DNA of 64,000 bases from Acetobacter sacchari (lineage in GTDB: Bacteria > Pseudomonadota > Alphaproteobacteria > Acetobacterales > Acetobacteraceae): assembly GCF_017377715.1 (NCBI RefSeq), contig NZ_JAFVMF010000015.1, positions 1 through 64,000 of the forward strand, given 5' to 3'. Positions 2,770-12,625 of this stretch are shown here, piece after piece. Position 1 is the stretch's first letter; every line of letters begins with the position of its first letter. Both the position numbers and the translations under genes were made by a program. Below the pieces are notes generated by a model. That model ran no database searches. It was given only the letters and a program-made list of their open reading frames with translations, and was not told the DNA's origin.

Positions 2770-4116
2770 TCATTCACCCAAGGCTGCATTCCAGCTTCTA
2801 TCTAGCTGAAAATATCGAAGTTTGTTATAAAAACTCGTTTTTATTCTAGATATTTTGTAACTTCCTCTTATGTGTCCATCTTGTCCTTCCCCATCCATAA
2901 CAAACGAAACGACATCATTCAGAACTACTATATCACCCTCGAGGCCGGACACGTCTGTAATTTGAACAATCCTTCTGACTCCGTCTCTATGTCGCTCTAT
3001 TTGCACCAAAAGATCAACAGCACCGATTATTTGAGCACGAATTGCATTCGGCGACAAACCAAGATTTCCCATTTGAACCATATTTTCAATTCTAGTAATA
3101 GCTTCCCGCGTATTATTTGCGTGAATAGTGGACATGCTGCCGTCGTGGCCTGTATTCATTGCCTGAACCATGTCAAACGCCTCCCCCCCTCTAACTTCTC
3201 CTATAATTATTCGGTCAGGACGCATACGTAAGGCGTTACGTACCAAATCCCTCTGAGTGACTTCCCCTGTCCCTTCAATTGACGGCGGTCTGGTTTCCAA
3301 TCTCACCACGTGAGGCTGCTGAAATTGCAATTCTGCAGCGTCTTCTACAGTAACCACTCTTTCACCTGGATCGATTAATTTCGACATCGCATTCATCAAG
3401 GTGGTTTTTCCGGAGCCTGTTCCGCCAGATATTATGACATTTAATCTACATTTTGCAGATATTTCTAATATTCTCGAAACCTGATGAGAACATCCTCCAT
3501 TTTCTACGATTGACTTAAAATCAATACTCCTTTTTGCGAACTTTCGTATAGACAAATACGGGCCATCTAATGCCAACGGCGGGAAAACTATATTCACCCG
3601 GGAACCATCAGAGAGTCGAGCATCTACCGTTGGGCTGGATTCGTCTATACGACGCCCCACTGCTGATGCGATTCTTTGACTCACCGCCATGAGATGCTTT
3701 TTATTTCGAAAGTTTACGTCTGTTTCTACAAGCGCTCCTTGTCTCTCGACAAATATCTTAAAAGGCCCGTTAACCATTATGTCTGTTATCTGGTCGTCAT
3801 CTAATAACGGTTGAATTGGACCGAGGCCCAACATATCATTAACTAGATCGTTCGCGAGTAATTTTTGCTCTCTAGCGTTTAGTTGAATTCTTTTTTCGTT
3901 TGCAATTTCGTTCACAACATGTTCGATTTCCGACATCAACCTGTCCGGCGGAAACTTGTTAATCGCAGCCGGATCAAGTTTTTCTAGACAAGCACTGTGT
4001 AATTCTGTCGCTTGAGCTGCATAGTCGAAATTTTGAACTTTTATTGCAACAACAGGATCTGACTGCTCCCTCGCAGTTCCAAGGATCTTCTTGCCAAATG
4101 TTCGCGCGCCGTTCAT
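2770..4116 (-). CDS. cpaF: TadA/CpaF secretion ATPase of the Tad pilus
   Basis: 448 residues. A hexameric cytoplasmic ATPase of the type II/IV secretion family that powers Flp pilus assembly. An N-terminal domain (about 60-200) carries the family motif LLDDDQITDIMVNGPFKIFV. The ATPase core has Walker A GGTGSGKTTL near residues 230-240, an Asp-box (VVTVEDAAELQF), Walker B-type RIIIGEVRGGEAFDM near 300-315 and a His-box (STIHANNTREA). All nucleotide-binding residues look intact. Its start overlaps the stop of cpaE by four bases (ATGA on the coding strand), which indicates translational coupling. AT-rich but fully open. Confidence 0.95.
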   Translation of the reverse strand: MNGARTFGKKILGTAREQSDPVVAIKVQNFDYAAQATELHSACLEKLDPAAINKFPPDRLMSEIEHVVNEIANEKRIQLNAREQKLLANDLVNDMLGLGPIQPLLDDDQITDIMVNGPFKIFVERQGALVETDVNFRNKKHLMAVSQRIASAVGRRIDESSPTVDARLSDGSRVNIVFPPLALDGPYLSIRKFAKRSIDFKSIVENGGCSHQVSRILEISAKCRLNVIISGGTGSGKTTLMNAMSKLIDPGERVVTVEDAAELQFQQPHVVRLETRPPSIEGTGEVTQRDLVRNALRMRPDRIIIGEVRGGEAFDMVQAMNTGHDGSMSTIHANNTREAITRIENMVQMGNLGLSPNAIRAQIIGAVDLLVQIERHRDGVRRIVQITDVSGLEGDIVVLNDVVSFVMDGEGQDGHIRGSYKISRIKTSFYNKLRYFQLDRSWNAALGE

Positions 4117-5360
4117 CGTTTAGTTCTTTCAGCATATTGTATGATTTTTTTTAGTAATTTTTTATCATTTCCAATTCTTTTGACACTTGCGATTGATGCC
4201 GCCTCTTGTGCCAAGGAAATGATTGCGTCCTTAAATGGTCCATCAACAGATGCAGCGGGCACACCAGATATCTCGGAATTATTTATCAATTTCGGTAGGT
4301 AAGGAAAAATAACATCTATCTTTCGTCCCACCCCCCCCTCTATCTCTCGTATCGAGAGTCCTCCCGGTTGCCCAGATTTATTCAAAACCAAAACAGGACG
4401 AGTTCCATGACTGCTAGAAAATGCCGATGAGATCTCTCTAATTGTATCACGCAGCCCAGGAAGCGTCGGATTCAGCACTATTATTTTCTGTTGACACAAA
4501 GCATTCAGTGAAAGCGAAAGATCATTTTTGAAATTTGGAACATCTATGACAATAAAATTGTATTTTCTTCTCACGACATCGATTAAATGCTGTGGTCCGT
4601 TTTCCGCCACAACCACGGATTCTGAAAAATCAACCTGACTACTTAATAAGTCGCATCGCTCCGCTACCTTCTGCGCGCTGCGCTCTATGAATAATTCATC
4701 AACGCGGTGCGGCGACTCGAATGCGGCGCGCAATCCATTATCCGTTTTCACACCCAGCAATACCGCGGCGGAGCCTTTATAGATATCACCGTCTACGGCC
4801 AGCGTGTAACGACGAGACACTTCACCTAAATACCACGACAGATTTGCCGCAATTGTGGTCGAACCCCCACCTCCTCGCGCTGACGTAACACCTAAGACAC
4901 GCCCTCCACGACTTACATCCGGCACGTAATCCCCTGTTGCCAAAAACGGCCCAAAAAACCGCACCACCATCGCACGCGTTAACGGTTTGTACAGGTACTC
5001 CGCAGCGCCAAGACCCCGTGTTACCAACCTATAGAAATTAGCGTCCTGGCGATCTCCTATGACAAGAACCTTCACATCAGGTTCCAATGTGGCAGCCAAT
5101 TCCTCCAGAATAATAATGGGTTGTTTTTCATTACTTACATCGACGATAAGAACTCTAGGACTACCGCCCCTCCGCAGTTTCTTTGCTGCCTCTTGACAGC
5201 GCATAGCTGCAACGGAGTACTGACCTGAACGAAATTCTTCCAAAACTTCACGAATGACCGTTTCGCTATCCTCATCTACAACGAACGCTTGAGCATAATA
5301 TTCTTGTACTGACGGCACATTCCCGCTATCGGGTTTATATTTTTTTTTAAATTCCATCAT
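4113..5360 (-). CDS. cpaE: CpaE/TadZ pilus localisation ATPase
   Basis: 415 residues. An N-terminal receiver-like domain (about 25-150) is followed by a MinD/ParA-type ATPase domain (about 155-400). TadZ/CpaE proteins place the pilus machine at the cell pole. The phosphate-binding loop reads GVTSARGGGGSTTIAANL: the glycines are there, but the usual lysine before TT is replaced by serine and the signature lysine by arginine. Such departures are known among TadZ proteins, many of which bind ATP weakly. A DxPN motif (VIDVPNF) stands at the Walker B position. It lies between the short lipoprotein gene (4 bp gap) and cpaF (4 bp overlap). Confidence 0.85.
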   Translation of the reverse strand: MMEFKKKYKPDSGNVPSVQEYYAQAFVVDEDSETVIREVLEEFRSGQYSVAAMRCQEAAKKLRRGGSPRVLIVDVSNEKQPIIILEELAATLEPDVKVLVIGDRQDANFYRLVTRGLGAAEYLYKPLTRAMVVRFFGPFLATGDYVPDVSRGGRVLGVTSARGGGGSTTIAANLSWYLGEVSRRYTLAVDGDIYKGSAAVLLGVKTDNGLRAAFESPHRVDELFIERSAQKVAERCDLLSSQVDFSESVVVAENGPQHLIDVVRRKYNFIVIDVPNFKNDLSLSLNALCQQKIIVLNPTLPGLRDTIREISSAFSSSHGTRPVLVLNKSGQPGGLSIREIEGGVGRKIDVIFPYLPKLINNSEISGVPAASVDGPFKDAIISLAQEAASIASVKRIGNDKKLLKKIIQYAERTKR

Positions 5361-5364
5361 TTCG

Positions 5365-5676
5365 CTATTGGTCCTTAGAGGAAGACCCTTGTGAATTTCC
5401 GACTTTACTTAGGGCTGCGTCTTGTAATGGCTTCACCTTTCCTTCTCTCAAACGTTTAACAGCATCAGCTCCCAACGAAATATCATGTTCTTGTTCATAT
5501 CTTCCGGAAGACAAATCTTCCGCGCTCTCTACTTGCAGAGTCAAATTTTTTGCGTTCGCACTCGAGGAATTCCATGAAAAGTTTGAGTACACCGGATCGA
5601 TTTGCGCGCATCCCCCGAATACCGAGCAAGACACACACAAAAGCAAATCACGAAGAAATATTACCATCGTCTTCAT
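5365..5676 (-). CDS. Short lipoprotein in the CpaD/RcpB position
   Basis: 103 residues from the ATG at 5676, which follows the cpaC stop after one base; a longer reading starts inside cpaC. The N-terminus is a lipoprotein signal with lipobox VFGGC, and the mature part (about 75 residues) is polar, with SLGADAVKRLREGKVKP-type sequence. In tad operons a lipoprotein (CpaD/RcpB) of roughly 200 residues normally sits between the secretin and CpaE. This one has the right place and targeting but half the usual length, and I see no clear CpaD motif beyond that. It is either a reduced CpaD or an unrelated secretin accessory lipoprotein. Confidence 0.6.
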   Translation of the reverse strand: MKTMVIFLRDLLLCVSCSVFGGCAQIDPVYSNFSWNSSSANAKNLTLQVESAEDLSSGRYEQEHDISLGADAVKRLREGKVKPLQDAALSKVGNSQGSSSKDQ

Positions 5677-5677
5677 A

Positions 5678-7093
5678 TTAGTTAACCATAAATCCAACAT
5701 TCAATTCATTATTACTATTATCGTCATCTTTATTTATGGTTTTCTCATAAAATTCACGGTCGCTGGCACTATGTTTAGCTTGAAATATTCTCTGATAATC
5801 TGAGGGCGGTGCCCATCCCGCATCCGGAGTTTTTAATACATCTGGATTTTGAACTGGACGCACAACATATGGAGTAACGATAATCACTAATTCACTTTGA
5901 TTGTGCTGAAAGCTGTTAGAGCGAAACAGCGCTCCAAGAATGGGTAAGCCTCCAAGTCCCGGCAATCCAAGATTTTGATTCGTCGTATTGTCCTGAAACA
6001 GCCCCGCGATAGCAAAGCTTTGCCCGCTTCCCAGTTCTACAGTCGTATCCGCACGGCTTACTGTAAGAGCAGGAATACTAATCGTAGAATTACCCTCTCC
6101 CATTTGCACAGCGCCGTTAGTTGACAATTGACTGACTTCCGGTCTGACATGCAGGTTGATTCTACCCGAAGTCAAAACGGTCGGCACAAAAGATAAGGAA
6201 ACTCCATACTGCTTAAATTGAACAGAGACTGTATTATTATAAGAGGAGACCGGTATAGGGTATTCCCCTCCCACGAGAAAACTGGCGGGTTCTCCGCTCA
6301 TCGTCGTAAGATTAGGCTCTGCCAGAACGTGGATAAGTTGATCCTGAGATAACGCATCTATTACCGTCTCAAGGTTCATTGAACGTCCAGCCACTTTGAA
6401 TTTTGACAGAAATGACAGACTACTCTGGTAAGATGTCATCGCAGCCAATGGATTTTGAGTAGCTATTCCAATTGCCGCGCTTGTTCCAAGAGCATTCATG
6501 TTTTCCCAATTCACACCAATCTCACGCACCAGTTGCCGGGACATTTCTACAACTTTTACTTGCAGGTTCACCTGCAGCGATCGATTTCCGCTCATATGAT
6601 TGTAGATATGGTCTTTCCCAACTTCGTCCTGAGCTTCTTCGGCGATTTTTTGCGCTTGCTCGGGGTCCCTCGCGTATCCATCCAAAATCATGCCATTGGG
6701 AAGCATCTTCGGCGTGACGGAATTTCCGAACTCTTTCGCAGAGATTTTTTTCGCTTGAGAAGCTGGATATTGAGCCGGCATTACCGTTACGTCATACTGC
6801 GCAAGCGAATGTCCAGCATCATCTGACGCAGAAATTGTTGTGTGACCAACCCCCGTTCCGAAGACAAACAGCGTCGAGGAGTTCGCCGGCCTCACTTCCG
6901 CAATTTTGGGATCAGCGGCAAATACGTTTCTTACCTGGTTTTTTAATTCTATTAAACGACCCGATCCAAGCTGTAGAACAATCCCCGTTGACGGTGTTTC
7001 GGCCTGTGCGCAAGCCCAAACCGAGACCGTCGCGCAAATGGAAAAAATGAGATTCGTACATATTCTTTTTATAATATATTCTTTAATTTTCAC
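5678..7093 (-). CDS. cpaC: CpaC/RcpA outer-membrane secretin of the Tad pilus
   Basis: 471 residues. A signal peptide (about 1-31, ending CAQAE) is followed by the pilus-type N-domain (IVLQLGSGRLIELKNQV, about 38-110), a BON-like stretch (MLPNGMILDGYARDPEQA) and the secretin core (about 170-420) with VNLQVKVVEMSRQLVREIG, LAEPNLTTMSGEPASFLVGG and the C-terminal signature ELVIIVTPYVV. It forms the ring through which the Flp pilus crosses the outer membrane. Its start overlaps the end of cpaB by 11 bp. The C-terminal tail after 420 is short and polar. All expected secretin elements are present. Confidence 0.93.
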   Translation of the reverse strand: MKIKEYIIKRICTNLIFSICATVSVWACAQAETPSTGIVLQLGSGRLIELKNQVRNVFAADPKIAEVRPANSSTLFVFGTGVGHTTISASDDAGHSLAQYDVTVMPAQYPASQAKKISAKEFGNSVTPKMLPNGMILDGYARDPEQAQKIAEEAQDEVGKDHIYNHMSGNRSLQVNLQVKVVEMSRQLVREIGVNWENMNALGTSAAIGIATQNPLAAMTSYQSSLSFLSKFKVAGRSMNLETVIDALSQDQLIHVLAEPNLTTMSGEPASFLVGGEYPIPVSSYNNTVSVQFKQYGVSLSFVPTVLTSGRINLHVRPEVSQLSTNGAVQMGEGNSTISIPALTVSRADTTVELGSGQSFAIAGLFQDNTTNQNLGLPGLGGLPILGALFRSNSFQHNQSELVIIVTPYVVRPVQNPDVLKTPDAGWAPPSDYQRIFQAKHSASDREFYEKTINKDDDNSNNELNVGFMVN

Positions 7094-7931
7094 TTTTTAC
7101 CTCGACCCGACCATTAAAGACGCGAAGAGCAGTAGCAGGCGCAACAGAGGACTTTGACCTGTTGTTATCAAAAAAATCGAAAGAAGATGAATCACTAACC
7201 AGATCTTTCTCTCCCACCCCATGGAAAGCCGATCGCAACGATAATGTTATTTTTCCTATTTTCGTCGCCAGGGACAGTTTTTGAGCCTGGATTGGTGTGA
7301 GTTCTAAAACAATATTTTTTGGATATTCTTCAGATTTGGAAGGATCTTTTCCTCGAACCAAACGCCGATCCACCGCGACGACGCGTATATCACTCAAGAT
7401 GATTTTGGACGTTGTGTTTTTTGGCCCGACACCTTCTGACGTATCAGAAACTGTCAGTATTACGTCAACAAAATCACCTGGCCAAATCAGGCCGCCCGCA
7501 GACGTTGCAGGATCAACTGCCACGGCCACGCCACGAAGCCCCGCCCCCAGTAGCGACGCAAGGAATCCACCTTCTCCCGGATGCACCACATCCTCAGCCC
7601 TGATTTGTGCCCCTTTTGGAATGGACACTCTCAACAGAGCTCCAGTCAGATCATGCCTGGACGAGTCCGATTCTACAATGGCGCCCGGAAACACAAACGA
7701 TTTTGGTGTCTGCACCCCCGCAAGATCCCCACTCTTTATGACTGATCCGGCATAAAGCTGATGTTCAGCCACCAAAACCGAAATTTTTGGCTCCGGCTTG
7801 ATCGTCGCAACGGCATCGTGAATTTGCGCTGGCGGCCGAGCCGCTGATTTGAGAAGTGCGTACAGCGACGTTCCGCCCAAAAAAAATATACATACATAAG
7901 GTATATATCTATGTATATTTTGATTTAACAT
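7083..7931 (-). CDS. cpaB: CpaB/RcpC pilus assembly protein with SAF domain
   Basis: 282 residues. One N-terminal hydrophobic segment (about 8-26) and then a periplasmic SAF domain (about 48-115: VLVAEHQLYAGSVIKSGDL ... VSIPKGAQIRAEDV), followed by the RcpC/CpaB domain with WPGDFVDVILTV near 155-165 and LELTPIQAQKLSLATKIGK near 225-243. CpaB proteins are thought to bind peptidoglycan or septate the secretin channel in Tad systems. Positioned between the prepilin peptidase (3 bp gap) and the secretin (overlap). Normal length. Confidence 0.9.
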   Translation of the reverse strand: MLNQNIHRYIPYVCIFFLGGTSLYALLKSAARPPAQIHDAVATIKPEPKISVLVAEHQLYAGSVIKSGDLAGVQTPKSFVFPGAIVESDSSRHDLTGALLRVSIPKGAQIRAEDVVHPGEGGFLASLLGAGLRGVAVAVDPATSAGGLIWPGDFVDVILTVSDTSEGVGPKNTTSKIILSDIRVVAVDRRLVRGKDPSKSEEYPKNIVLELTPIQAQKLSLATKIGKITLSLRSAFHGVGEKDLVSDSSSFDFFDNNRSKSSVAPATALRVFNGRVEVKSEN

Positions 7932-7934
7932 TAC

Positions 7935-8426
7935 TTACACCAAATGATTCACAACATATCCAACGACTATAGCGACCGCATAAGGAAGCGTCCCCTCGTC
8001 ATGAAGGCTTCGTGAGCTTGTTTCCGCATGATTTCGATGTATCTTGCGGCATTTCGCAATACGGACTACGTCACGCCCGAGAATGGGCAATAATTGATAA
8101 AAAATCGCTAATAACGCTCCCGATATTGCGATCCAAAACGCCACCCGCACAAAACTTTCTGGGGACAAAAGAAGACTCACACCCGCAAGAAGTTTCACGT
8201 CACCGCCACCGAGAAGACCCAGGCGCCAACATAAAAGCAGTACAATCAACGTCATAAGGAACGTCGCAACTCCAACCGCCCCACGTCCACTACAAAAAAA
8301 CGAGAATAATCCGAGGAGAAATAGCGTCCCCGACACGCGGTTCGGTATAAGCCGCGTCCGCCAGTCGGCGATCGCCGCGGCGCCTAGAAGAAGGAGAGCC
8401 GCGCCATTTACGAAAACGTGCAGCAT
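7935..8426 (-). CDS. cpaA: CpaA/TadV prepilin peptidase
   Basis: 163 residues, a small membrane aspartic protease (A24 family) that trims the Flp prepilin. The two catalytic aspartates are visible: one in AAIADWRTRLIPN (about residue 21) and one in the GxGD-type motif LLGGGDVKLLAG (about residue 76). Several hydrophobic segments span the protein. It follows the pilin gene by 18 bp and precedes cpaB by 3 bp. Codon use is intermediate between the GC-rich pilin gene and the AT-rich genes downstream. Confidence 0.9.
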   Translation of the reverse strand: MLHVFVNGAALLLLGAAAIADWRTRLIPNRVSGTLFLLGLFSFFCSGRGAVGVATFLMTLIVLLLCWRLGLLGGGDVKLLAGVSLLLSPESFVRVAFWIAISGALLAIFYQLLPILGRDVVRIAKCRKIHRNHAETSSRSLHDEGTLPYAVAIVVGYVVNHLV

Positions 8427-8444: not shown

Positions 8445-8642
8445 TTAGCCGCCAGTGCTGCCAGGCGCACTTTTGACGTCAGTGGCAATCGTATTGAACA
8501 GAGACGTCAGGTTTGTGCCGAGCGTCTGCATCGCCGTGAACGCTACGACGGCGACGAGACCAGCGATCAGTGCGTATTCAATTGCAGTCACCCCCTCGCG
8601 GTCCCGAAGGAATAGGGTAGCCGCCCGCCAGAATTTCGTCAT
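8445..8642 (-). CDS. flp: Flp/Fap-type pilin
   Basis: 65 residues from the ATG at 8642, which has a GAGGG ribosome binding site a few bases upstream; an in-frame GTG at 8681 would add 13 residues but has no such site. Prepilin cleavage is expected at REG/VTAIEYALIAG, the class IVb Flp signature with Glu at +5 and Tyr at +6, followed by a hydrophobic helix (about 15-40) and a short polar tail ending in APGSTGG. It is the major pilus subunit and the first gene of the leftward operon, matured by the peptidase encoded next. Its base composition is like that of the GC-rich genes to the right, unlike the distal tad genes. Confidence 0.92.
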   Translation of the reverse strand: MTKFWRAATLFLRDREGVTAIEYALIAGLVAVVAFTAMQTLGTNLTSLFNTIATDVKSAPGSTGG

Positions 8643-8859
8643 AACGCCCTCGTAAGCTATAGTGTCCTTTGGCAGGCGCACCGAACCTCGCGAACGTCTG
8701 GATCAGGCTATGCCGTACGGAATAGGACCTGTATGCCCAAAAACGATTGATATTTTGTTAATTTTTCCGCTTCCGAGCATCGCCGTCGACCCGCGACTAT
8801 CCGTCACAGCCCGTCATAAGCACTGCAGATCCTCTCCGTCGCATCGGACGTAACGGCCA
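8643..8859 (-). promoter_or_regulatory. Leader region of the tad operon
   Basis: About 215 bp between the mprF-like stop and the flp start, the only gap large enough to hold the promoter for the ten-gene pilus operon. It contains an AT-rich patch (8736-8766 on the plus strand), but no clear sigma-54 or sigma-70 match that I would assign. No terminator hairpin with a T-run follows the mprF-like gene, so read-through from lysS-mprF into the pilus operon is possible. Confidence 0.35.
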
Positions 8860-10956
8860 TCAGCGCTCGACGAACAATGGGCGGCGGCGAAAAAGCACAG
8901 CCCTCACAAGACCTATCTGTTCGGACGGACAGCAAAGATATGCGCCCGGTGTGTCGCTCAGAGGCCAGTTGACCAGGCCAATATCCGCGTAAATCGGTAG
9001 AAAGGATGTGCCTGTCCGCCAGAAGACCGGCTGCAGCCCATCCTGAAGAGCCAGATCGCGCAAACGCCAGATCACGGAAGCACAGTCGGCGTCGTCTCCG
9101 GCCGGATCACCGAGCGCCACGACAAATCCGCCCTTCCGACGAAATGGAATCGCTGCAGCCCCGGCCTCTCCCTTGATCAAACCGTCCGGCGCAGGCCCGG
9201 GTATCGTATCGAGCGCATGAGACAACCCCCGGTACCAGTTCTCCGTGTCGTCGCTCCATGGCTGTTCCGCGACCTTACCCGGCCTTGCAAGACGGGCGAT
9301 GATGATCAGCCCCAGCAACGTCGCCAACAAGACGATCCATCGTGCGTCGTTCGCCTCCGGCACAAATACAATCATGTCCCACCAGTTGCCGATCTGATGG
9401 CTTGTCGCGACCACAAACGCGCAGCCTATCAACAACAGCAACGACAACAATGTGGAGAATGACAACGGTTCGCTCAACAACCGCGCGCGGCGATAATAAC
9501 ACTTACGGAAGGGCGCAATCAGAAACGCCGACATCGCAAGCATTGCAGGCGCCAGAAGCGAATTGCCGCGCATGAAGGTAATGACGGCGGACAGGACCAG
9601 CAACGACAATGTCGCGCCCCACGACAAGGTCACCCGCTGCGAAAGACCGATGGCGAGCGCGATCAGCATGGCGCCGATCAATGACAGCATATAGCCGCTG
9701 ATCGCCCCTGCAGCCGCGAACACTACATGCCCCCCAGGCGTGGATACGATCGGATTGATGATCGGCAGCAGCAGCAGCAGTATCCCGCACAGTGACACCG
9801 TGCCCGTGGCGACGCCGACGGAAAAGTCTGCCTCGCTCTCACGCACGACGATGCTGCGCCGGGCCGGGCGTGGCGTAGCGCCAGCCATGCGCGCCTGAGC
9901 CTTTCGAGCCAACGCGGCGTCGCCGCGCAGGAACAGTTCATGCCCGGCGAACATCCCCCCGGCGATAAACAGCGGGATGATGTAGTAGAACAGGCGGAAT
10001 ACAAGGATGGCGCCGAGAATCTGCGGAGCTGGAATATACGGGCCCAGAGCAAGCAGCATCGCCCCGTCGAAGACACCCAATCCGCCAGGAACACTAGCGA
10101 CAAGGCCCGCCGTATAGGACGCGATATAGATCCCCAGAAAAGCGCCGTACCCGAGCGGCGCACCAGCTGGCAGCAGCACATAGGCGATCGCCGCAGTAGC
10201 AGCCATATCGGCGGCGGAGACGATGGTTTGTGCGACCGCCATGGGAGCGGTGGGCAACTCTATGGCCTTTCCTCGTACGCTGACCTTCCGCCACATCAGT
10301 GTCGCCGCGACATAAGCCAGCACCAGCGCCCACAGCAGGCCGCCAACCACACGCATCAGCAGTTGCGGCGAGTGAGCGCCCACAAACGGGATCGCCCGAG
10401 GCTCCAGAATAAATACGCCGCCCGCCAGAGCGGCGGCGCCGAGAAGATACGTCGCAGAACAGAAAGCTATGATCTGGGCGATCGCAAGCGGCGGCAGGCC
10501 CCAGTTACGGTAAAGCCTGAAACGAACTGCCGCCCCGGACACGGCCGAGAAACCGAGATTATGTGACAGGACGTAAGAGCAGAACGCCGCGAATGCGGTG
10601 CGCAGGTAGGATATCTTTCGATGCCCTACCTGAATCACCGCCAGGCGGTCGTAAAATGAGAGAATGAAGTAAGACAGAACGGTGCAGCCGACCCCGGCCA
10701 GAAGCGCTTCGTTGGGAATGCCGCGAAGCGCCGCGCGGATATCGGCCATGCTCAACGTCCGGACTTCCCGCCGGACGACGAAAATGGCGCCTATCATCAA
10801 CAGAAGCCCGACAAGATGCGGCGCGTGATGCAACCACGCACGCCAGCGAGACGGCGGCGCACAGGGGCGTGTCTGTTCGGACTCCACGCTCACACCATCG
10901 GCCCCTCTTCTATCTGCGGAGTTTTCGTCTCGCTCCGCACGATATCGCTCCTGCAA
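8860..10956 (-). CDS. mprF: MprF-like lysylphosphatidylglycerol flippase with truncated synthase domain
   Basis: 698 residues. After a polar N-terminus come many membrane segments (about residues 48 to 570). The first block is the UPF0104-type flippase domain (AGVGCTVLSYFILSFYDRLA near 92-111, LSHNLGFSAVSGAAVRFRLY near 134-153, PGGLGVFDGAMLLALG near 290-305). The C-terminal part begins like the DUF2156 transferase domain that puts lysine from Lys-tRNA on phosphatidylglycerol (GFVVALGDPAGD, then PVFWRTGTSFLPIYADIGL), but it stops about 45 residues later, whereas full MprF proteins are usually around 850 residues. The catalytic end is therefore missing. It lies 13 bp after the lysyl-tRNA synthetase gene on the same strand. 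It may still flip lipids; synthesis of lysyl-lipid by this protein looks doubtful. Confidence 0.8.
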   Translation of the reverse strand: MQERYRAERDENSADRRGADGVSVESEQTRPCAPPSRWRAWLHHAPHLVGLLLMIGAIFVVRREVRTLSMADIRAALRGIPNEALLAGVGCTVLSYFILSFYDRLAVIQVGHRKISYLRTAFAAFCSYVLSHNLGFSAVSGAAVRFRLYRNWGLPPLAIAQIIAFCSATYLLGAAALAGGVFILEPRAIPFVGAHSPQLLMRVVGGLLWALVLAYVAATLMWRKVSVRGKAIELPTAPMAVAQTIVSAADMAATAAIAYVLLPAGAPLGYGAFLGIYIASYTAGLVASVPGGLGVFDGAMLLALGPYIPAPQILGAILVFRLFYYIIPLFIAGGMFAGHELFLRGDAALARKAQARMAGATPRPARRSIVVRESEADFSVGVATGTVSLCGILLLLLPIINPIVSTPGGHVVFAAAGAISGYMLSLIGAMLIALAIGLSQRVTLSWGATLSLLVLSAVITFMRGNSLLAPAMLAMSAFLIAPFRKCYYRRARLLSEPLSFSTLLSLLLLIGCAFVVATSHQIGNWWDMIVFVPEANDARWIVLLATLLGLIIIARLARPGKVAEQPWSDDTENWYRGLSHALDTIPGPAPDGLIKGEAGAAAIPFRRKGGFVVALGDPAGDDADCASVIWRLRDLALQDGLQPVFWRTGTSFLPIYADIGLVNWPLSDTPGAYLCCPSEQIGLVRAVLFRRRPLFVER

Positions 10957-10969
10957 CGCCCCTCGTCCC

Positions 10970-12625
10970 TCAGGCCTCCCCGCCTCTGATCAGAGCGGCG
11001 TCGATGAGGGCGATTGTATTACGCACTCCATACAACGCGATGAAGCCGCCGAAGCGCGGTCCCTCGGCCTGACCCAGCAGCACCTCGTAAAGGCAGCCGA
11101 ACCATGAACGCAGCGGCTCGAACCCGTGCCGCTTGCCGACCTCGAAAACCAGCTCCTGCAGCGTCTCGGCCGTCGCGCCCTCGGCTTCGTAGATCGCCAG
11201 GGCCTGCGAAAGATCGGCCAGAGCTGTGCGTTCACGCTCATCCGGCAGGCGGTAGACTTTCGCCGGGCGCACAAAATCCGCGTAGAAGACGATCGCCCGC
11301 TCGACCAACGTGGCGAGCGTAGGATGCGTCTGCGGCGACACGGTCGCGTCATATCGCGCGAGAAAGCCCCACAGCACTTCCGGCGTCTCGGCGTTCGCGA
11401 CGCTGGCCAGATTCAGCAGCATGCCGAATGAGACCGGGCTGCCCGCATGAGCCGGCACGTGCCCGTTATGAATGAACCACGCCGGATTGACGCACAGGGT
11501 CGCTGCGTCCGCCTGCTCCGCCTCGTCAGCAGCGCCATCCAGCCGCGACTGAAGCGCCGCAGCCTTTTCGACATGCGACAGGTATTCGTCGGTCGCCTTC
11601 GGAATCACGTCAAAGAACAGACGCTTGGCGCGCTGCGGTTGATTGAACATGTACTGGCCGAGACTCTCCGGAGGCGCGTAACGCAGCCACTCTTCAACCG
11701 ACAGGCCATTACCTTTCGATTTCGATATCTTCTGCCCGTGCTCGTCGAGAAACAGCTCGTACGTAAGGTTGACCGGTGGCGGCGCGCCAAGAATGCGGCA
11801 GATCCGTCCGGACAACCGAACGCTGTCGATCAGATCCTTACCCGACATCTCGTAATCGACGCCCAGCGCGTACCAGCGCATCGCCCAGTCTGCCTTCCAC
11901 TGCATCTTGGCCGCGCCGCCGGTGACGGGCGTCTCGAACCGTTCGCCGTTATCGTCCGTCCAGCTTACCGTTCCTGCGTCAGGATCGACGGCGTCCATGC
12001 GAACCTGCATGACCTGCCCGGTCTTCGGATGGATCGGCAGCACGGGCGAATATGTCGCGCGACGCTCCGGGCCAAGCGTCGGCAGGATCACCGCGACGAT
12101 CTCGTCATGCGTCTCAAGCACCCGGCGAAGCGCCGCATCAAAACGGCCAGACGTGTAGTAATCTGTGGCTGAAGCGAATTCGTATTCGAAGCCGAAGCTG
12201 TCGAGGAAGGAACACAGCCGCGCATTGTTATGCGCCGCGAAGGAGGAATGCGTGCCAAACGGGTCAGGAACGCGGGTCAGTGGCTGCCCAAGATGGGCGG
12301 ACAGCATCTCCTTGTTCGGAACGTTGTCCGGTACCTTCCTGAGCCCGTCCATATCGTCCGAAAAGGCGAGCAAGCGGGTCGGACGGCCCGTCATCGCCGT
12401 AAACGCCTGACGGACCCAACTTGTGCGCGCGACTTCTCCGAAGGTGCCGATATGCGGCAGACCGGATGGACCGTACCCGGTCTCCAGCAGGGCTGGCCGC
12501 TCCGCCGGTTTCGACGCCACATGCTCGGCAAGCTTGCGGGCTTCCTCGAACGGCCAGGCTTTCGGCTGGAAACCGGGCTGCGTCCGAAACAGGCGGGAGA
12601 CGGGGGATGTGGAAAGGTCAGACAT
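10970..12625 (-). CDS. lysS: Class I lysyl-tRNA synthetase
   Basis: 551 residues. The archaeal-type (class I) enzyme found in many alphaproteobacteria in place of the class II LysRS. The HIGH-type signature is [12 protein letters not shown] near residues 53-64, and the KMSKS-type loop is [15 protein letters not shown] near 298-312. A Rossmann catalytic core is followed by the helical anticodon-binding region. It charges tRNA-Lys in the cytoplasm. The mprF-like gene follows 13 bp downstream, a functional pairing because MprF consumes Lys-tRNA. The start chosen gives [14 protein letters not shown], with the rightward promoter region of the protease gene upstream. Confidence 0.95.

Follow-up and report, generated by a model that had tools for sequence, protein, structure and literature searches.

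The MprF-like gene beside the tad pilus operon of Acetobacter sacchari encodes a short MprF that is the normal form in the Acetobacteraceae and no defect of this locus. We consider it likely that the protein is an old, intact variant of that family, a putative flippase or scramblase that lacks the synthase and carries its one GNAT fold as a cytoplasmic cap. In the proposed mechanism, the membrane region and the first GNAT fold would have been retained and the second GNAT fold lost, the end of the protein would close the first fold with a strand and a helix, and the remaining fold would dock on the membrane part as the cap, giving a protein that may act on lipid without lysyl-transferase activity.

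The window is the whole stretch of DNA analyzed, 64,000 nucleotides of contig NZ_JAFVMF010000015.1, and its features are listed in Table 1. In Pfam, LPG_synthase_TM matched the short protein with 46.4 bits (cut-off 33.4) and the key flippase residues are kept, in agreement with the first-pass annotation, which had called the flippase part intact-looking. The second membrane subdomain is also present, as the profile alignment to solved MprF runs through it. The LPG_synthase_C match covered residues 597–661 and only positions 29–93 of the 298 in the profile (E 1.6e-7), which leaves the usual domain about 200 residues short; the annotation had likewise described a DUF2156 domain cut short, with the coding sequence for the catalytic end absent. 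It had also placed the pilus operon about 215 bp beyond mprF, and 217 bp were measured between the mprF stop and the ATG of the Flp pilin (8642–8640). The neighboring genes form a tad pilus locus in which RcpC/CpaB, secretin, prepilin peptidase and CpaE were all detected, the CpaE-like ATPase being called from AAA_31 and weak response-regulator matches. A search of the A. sacchari genome (99.68% complete) for the separate DUF2156 protein that the annotation had suggested looking for yielded no second LPG_synthase_C (PF09924) locus at E values up to 10; PF09924 matches this locus alone, and a separate gene for the missing synthase half was excluded.

Table 1. Features of the lysS–mprF–tad region, in positions of the window
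Feature	Positions	Strand	Basis and remarks
Short-form MprF-like gene, 698 aa	8860..10956	-	TTG start as listed; start provisional
Flippase transmembrane part 1, LPG_synthase_TM, residues 48–331	9964..10815	-	Pfam; charged pair D297-R321
Second transmembrane part, ~residues 373–556, contains R489	9289..9840	-	Predicted secondary structure; residue mapping
Single GNAT-like fold, ~residues 567–698	8863..9258	-	Predicted models; Pfam match only 8974–9168
Terminal strand and helix, residues 673–688	8893..8940	-	Predicted models, superposition on full-length MprF C-terminal end
Class I lysyl-tRNA synthetase gene lysS	10970..12625	-	tRNA-synt_1f, 2.7e-124
Intergenic gap, mprF stop to Flp pilin	8643..8859	.	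217 bp, read from sequence
Flp-type pilin gene, tad gene nearest mprF	8445..8642	-	Identified by reading, not profile
tad genes: A24 prepilin peptidase, CpaB/RcpC, secretin, CpaE-like ATPase	4113..8426	-	Profile matches

Distribution and phylogeny of the short form

Within the genus, the short MprF-like protein was found in 48 of 49 genomes. In 45 genomes it is one open frame of 686–758 aa from stop to stop, in three the gene is in pieces, and the sole genome without it is 68% complete. All 80 named loci compared (the best 80 of 529) encode the short form, the same ~700-residue protein with a conserved C-terminus (629–723 aa with script-chosen starts), and they span Acetobacter, Gluconacetobacter, Komagataeibacter, Novacetimonas, Gluconobacter, Asaia and other genera. 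The closest among these best 80 was that of Acetobacter nitrogenifigens (98% identical).

At the level of the family, PF09924 matched in 217 of 249 genomes and, among the matches listed, its rows lay within profile positions 12–109, except in 17 genomes that bear a full-length MprF. At 1e-60, a profile of the short form matched 105 of 110 family genomes and gave no match in the other five; the match reached model position 543 or beyond, of 621, in 102 genomes (two of these near-complete matches being cut by a contig end) and was confined to the first membrane part in three. Neither PF09924 nor the short-form profile matched in G050, G071, G100, G138 and G143 in the family search, while G113, G077 and G163 carry the short form despite having no PF09924 match. 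The 17 genomes with full-length MprF (L032–L048) have two PF09924 matches each, the second of which is half-length in 15 (including G154); in G054 the short form was found by the short-form profile, and in G121 the half-length match was absent among the matches listed. In at least 16 of the 17, the full-length copy is thus an addition and not a replacement.

In searches of the class (192 and 241 genomes), the form with a lone first fold was seen only in Acetobacteraceae (three and four genomes, respectively), a result that leaves out weak PF09924 matches elsewhere, such as G378 and G442. The gene-order search matched Acetobacteraceae genomes only and is uninformative on sister families. In another alphaproteobacterial family, the ORF at 3516–6005 of L234 (G341) is full length, with a degenerate-looking GNAT fold 2 that has a gap in its middle; synthase function may have been lost there independently.

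A tree of the membrane region was built by a quick method from 68 rows and 478 columns, comprising the window, 11 of the 80 named loci, 41 short forms from other genera, 14 full-length proteins and L234. All 53 short forms fell on one side of one branch with an SH-aLRT of 100, and the full-length proteins L238–L241, which come from within the family, grouped among the full-length MprFs of other alphaproteobacteria. With midpoint rooting, the root lands within the short forms, and the tree alone fixes no single gain; since full-length MprF is widespread outside the Acetobacteraceae, a single old loss is the natural reading.

Predicted C-terminal fold and origin of the tail

AlphaFold2 models were made of the full-length protein (46 sequences; pLDDT 82.0, pTM 0.74) and of the C-terminal domain (42 sequences; pLDDT 84.5, pTM 0.78), using alignments of the window with 45 (A2) and 41 (A3) of the 80 named loci, respectively; alignment A1 held 19 rows, with L016 left out. 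MprF structures took the top ranks in Foldseek (E 1e-25 to 3e-21). In VIA-align, 117–119 residues of the domain model were superposed with an rmsd of 2.2–2.6 in nine of 11 MprF entries, the remaining two being 6lv0 (3.3) and 9j8q (5.4). The chain ranges, which report just the first and last aligned residues, were for example 544–858 and 550–860, about 310–320 residues that reach the chain C-terminus, and the full model agreed with the domain model on this C-terminal placement. Because about 118 residues cover a span of about 315 at low rmsd, the alignment appears to pass over GNAT fold 2 and to keep the final strand and helix. The models contain one GNAT fold, compared with the tandem GNAT folds 1 and 2 of bifunctional MprF, and predict that the first fold is closed and that the protein lacks about 195 residues, corresponding to GNAT fold 2. 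The predicted GNAT fold also gave VIA Z scores of 7–8.5 to many single GNAT chains, far below those to MprF chains. The loop considered for the acetyl-CoA binding motif of single-domain GNAT acetyltransferases has the MprF-like sequence GDPAGDD.

The tail could instead be new: in a common ancestor of the family, a stop may have arisen after the first fold, and the residues that followed may have evolved into a strand and helix. Tails such as RYLVCRAERDL resemble the full-length segment that follows the first fold (LRYAVRRAERDG), the tail is the least conserved part of the protein, and Foldseek, which aligns locally, matched the domain to MprF chains over its first 71–75 residues only, without the tail, whose placement on the full-length C-terminus comes only from VIA-align. 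Against such a truncation, the modeled tail sits where the C-terminal strand and helix of full-length MprF sit. Sequence comparison of the tails, which are mutually related, was decisive in neither of two tests. In the first, tails gave no excess over shuffles when compared with the full-length C-terminus; in the second, which took 38 of 41 other-genus tails and 79 of 80 named tails, there was a weak excess, with the rival segment also scoring weakly. There, the C-terminal segment exceeded the 95th percentile of the shuffles for 61% of the other-genus tails versus 39% for the rival segment (n = 38), and for 27% versus 8% of the named tails (n = 79). We regard an ancestral truncation with a new tail as possible but somewhat doubtful.

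Flippase residues and the lysS neighbor

Flippase residues were mapped onto R. tropici MprF (RtMprF) as described in passages of PMC8131360, with R. tropici numbering assigned manually from the R. etli alignment, at an offset of two. Across the 121 short forms compared, the barrier arginine R321 and P290 were always kept, the barrier acid at 297 is D in 120 and E in one, and position 250, whose acid binds the lysyl head, has D or E throughout. At the docking interface, two residues do not vary among the same 121 proteins: R489, which corresponds to the arginine of RtMprF in contact with GNAT fold 1, and D634, its acidic partner. RtMprF D604 is replaced by S or A in most short forms and R639 mostly by T or S; these two interface positions vary also in the 14 full-length rows. 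Contacts made by GNAT fold 2 must be lost in the short form. The position of RtMprF N117 (residue 132, at 10561–10563) is His in 80 of 80 named short forms and in 32 of 41 from other genera versus 2 of 14 full-length proteins, and because this lipid-head contact is His, the substrate may be other than lysyl-PG.

The active site of the MprF synthase lies in the cleft between both GNAT folds, according to passages of PMC8131360, and since GNAT fold 2 is absent, synthesis of lysyl-PG by the short protein is unlikely. That the protein flips but does not make lysyl-PG, as the first-pass annotation had proposed, is plausible. In vitro, the MprF of P. aeruginosa acts as a scramblase of broad specificity, as stated in part of PMC11980842, and a lone flippase should therefore be workable as a protein.

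Upstream of mprF, the lysS gene ends 13 bp before the listed TTG start. At 80 of 80 named loci it is the immediate upstream neighbor on the mprF strand, the matches being no more than about 245 bp apart and in some loci overlapping (at L124 the contig cuts lysS), and it was likewise upstream at four of four other-genus short-form loci with flanks. A class I lysS, the only class used as the query for these loci, was found beside none of 16 other MprF-like loci (15 full-length and L234; about 3–5 kb of flank). With this neighbor, and with a GDPxG...W motif that never varies among the 80 named loci and hardly varies among the 41 others, the protein might still be a transferase whose single GNAT fold moves lysine onto lipid alone, as a dimer or together with LysRS. 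The inter-fold location of the active site in the portion of PMC8131360 cited above argues against this. In addition, a search for a class II LysRS in the A. sacchari genome gave three matches, none above the cut-off, so that the neighboring class I lysS is probably the only LysRS of the genome, and its adjacency therefore need not imply a lipid role. A surviving transferase is accordingly considered unlikely. It is more improbable still that the short MprF works as one unit with its class I LysRS neighbor, in which the single GNAT fold would dock charged tRNA or LysRS at the membrane and the flippase, with its Asn-to-His head-group pocket, would handle some aminoacyl lipid different from lysyl-PG or sense lysine charging.

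A flippase or scramblase that lacks the synthase remains our preferred reading, and the Acetobacter mprF product, although annotated as a phosphatidylglycerol lysyltransferase, probably makes no lysyl-PG. In the part of PMC10269862 that deals with mprF, transposon mutants of A. fabarum were tested for persistence in flies, and one of two differed from wild type; the gene is discussed there as a lysyl-PG flippase and listed as a lysyltransferase. A. fabarum LMG 24244 carries the short form (L146), and the gene disrupted in those mutants would be the short-form mprF. Explanations of such Acetobacter mprF phenotypes that are based on lysyl-PG thus need testing.

Tad neighborhood, selection and comparison with known systems

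The boundary between mprF and the tad operon had been read as a deletion or insertion junction; in such an event the tad operon would recently have taken the place of the 3′ coding end of a full-length mprF in this strain, and a synthase domain that is cut, with a pilus operon beginning 217 bp further on, would fit. This reading is refuted by relatives that share the ~700-residue protein and its C-terminus, the finding that the first-pass annotation had named as decisive against it, and that lack tad genes in the flank. With prepilin peptidase, CpaB, secretin and CpaE as queries (tblastn, 1e-8), tad genes were absent from the flank at 80 of 80 named loci, all of which encode the short form; up to 10 kb was covered, and less at contig ends, the L115 contig stopping right past mprF. 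A CpaB relative was found in 20 of 49 genus genomes. It lies 0.7–1.9 Mb from mprF in the five genomes with both on one contig (G001, G002, G013, G040 and G048); in the other CpaB-bearing draft genomes the two are on separate contigs with no measurable distance. Comparison of the gap (8643–8859) with eight full-length MprFs detected no DUF2156 remnant (best E 0.38). A. nitrogenifigens has the same intact mprF end as the window, and its tad and mprF contigs (the end of L252 and the start of L253) break at a C run in the same intergenic gap. The gap of the window has no such C run, and the contig ends fit the gene order of the window with an assembly break.

Selection was estimated from 21 close pairs, hand-picked for closeness and some sharing a row, using Nei-Gojobori counts with Jukes-Cantor correction in a custom script. 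Pooled dN/dS came to 0.052 in the GNAT part, compared with 0.068 in the membrane part and 0.143 in the tail. Purifying selection on the C-terminal part is strong; it extends to the tail and also speaks against a recent junction, to which we give a very small probability. A decaying pseudogene family, to which the loss of one catalytic half and the three genus genomes with the gene in pieces might point, is contradicted by dN/dS of 0.05–0.14 and by near-universal retention in the family, and its probability is negligible.

The gene downstream of the short mprF varies among relatives. Among 10 proteins scanned, drawn from 22 loci, four were MarC, two gluconate dehydrogenase subunit 3 and one aldehyde dehydrogenase, and three had no Pfam match. 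A conserved downstream partner, suspected to be AcvB/VirJ-like, was rejected because the downstream gene differs between relatives. A gene for a MarC-family membrane protein lies 3′ of the short mprF at L122, L133, L184 and L192, in several genera, and at L184 the MarC ORF overlaps the mprF stop.

The short form was not described in the literature searched on MprF, lysyl-PG and acetic acid bacteria, which consisted of open-licence papers, largely as titles and abstracts. Acetic acid bacteria and their kin appear to hold a natural MprF that is a flippase without a synthase and is under strong selection, and it offers a ready system for studying the flippase half on its own, both its function and the lipid it moves.

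With the bifunctional MprF/LpiA proteins (R. tropici 6lvf and 7duw, R. etli 7f47, P. aeruginosa 9goe and 9j8q), the short form shares the membrane region and GNAT fold 1. The short-form profile matched solved MprF/LpiA with E values from 5e-86 to 7e-95, and the full model aligned with them in VIA-align at Z 28–31 over 524–581 residues. The membrane region of RtMprF, which has 14 helices, is kept. The short form differs in having no GNAT fold 2, a tail of its own, mostly His at the N117 position and a class I lysS next to it. The charged pair of the flippase barrier, a conserved Glu-Arg in bifunctional MprF, is kept in the short form as Asp-Arg. Of the DUF2156/LPG_synthase_C structures (5vrv, 4v34–4v36 and 6lv0), the first half is shared, with 71–73 residues at 0.8–1.2 Å, but the short form lacks the second fold and hence the inter-fold cleft. 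Mycobacterial LysX, an MprF-like part fused to a class II LysRS, also links MprF to LysRS; there the synthetase is fused and of class II, whereas the short MprF has a class I enzyme as its neighbor. In C. perfringens, according to part of PMC11980842, MprF1 is a synthase without a flippase, which shows that the two activities are separable, and the split is the opposite of that in the short form.
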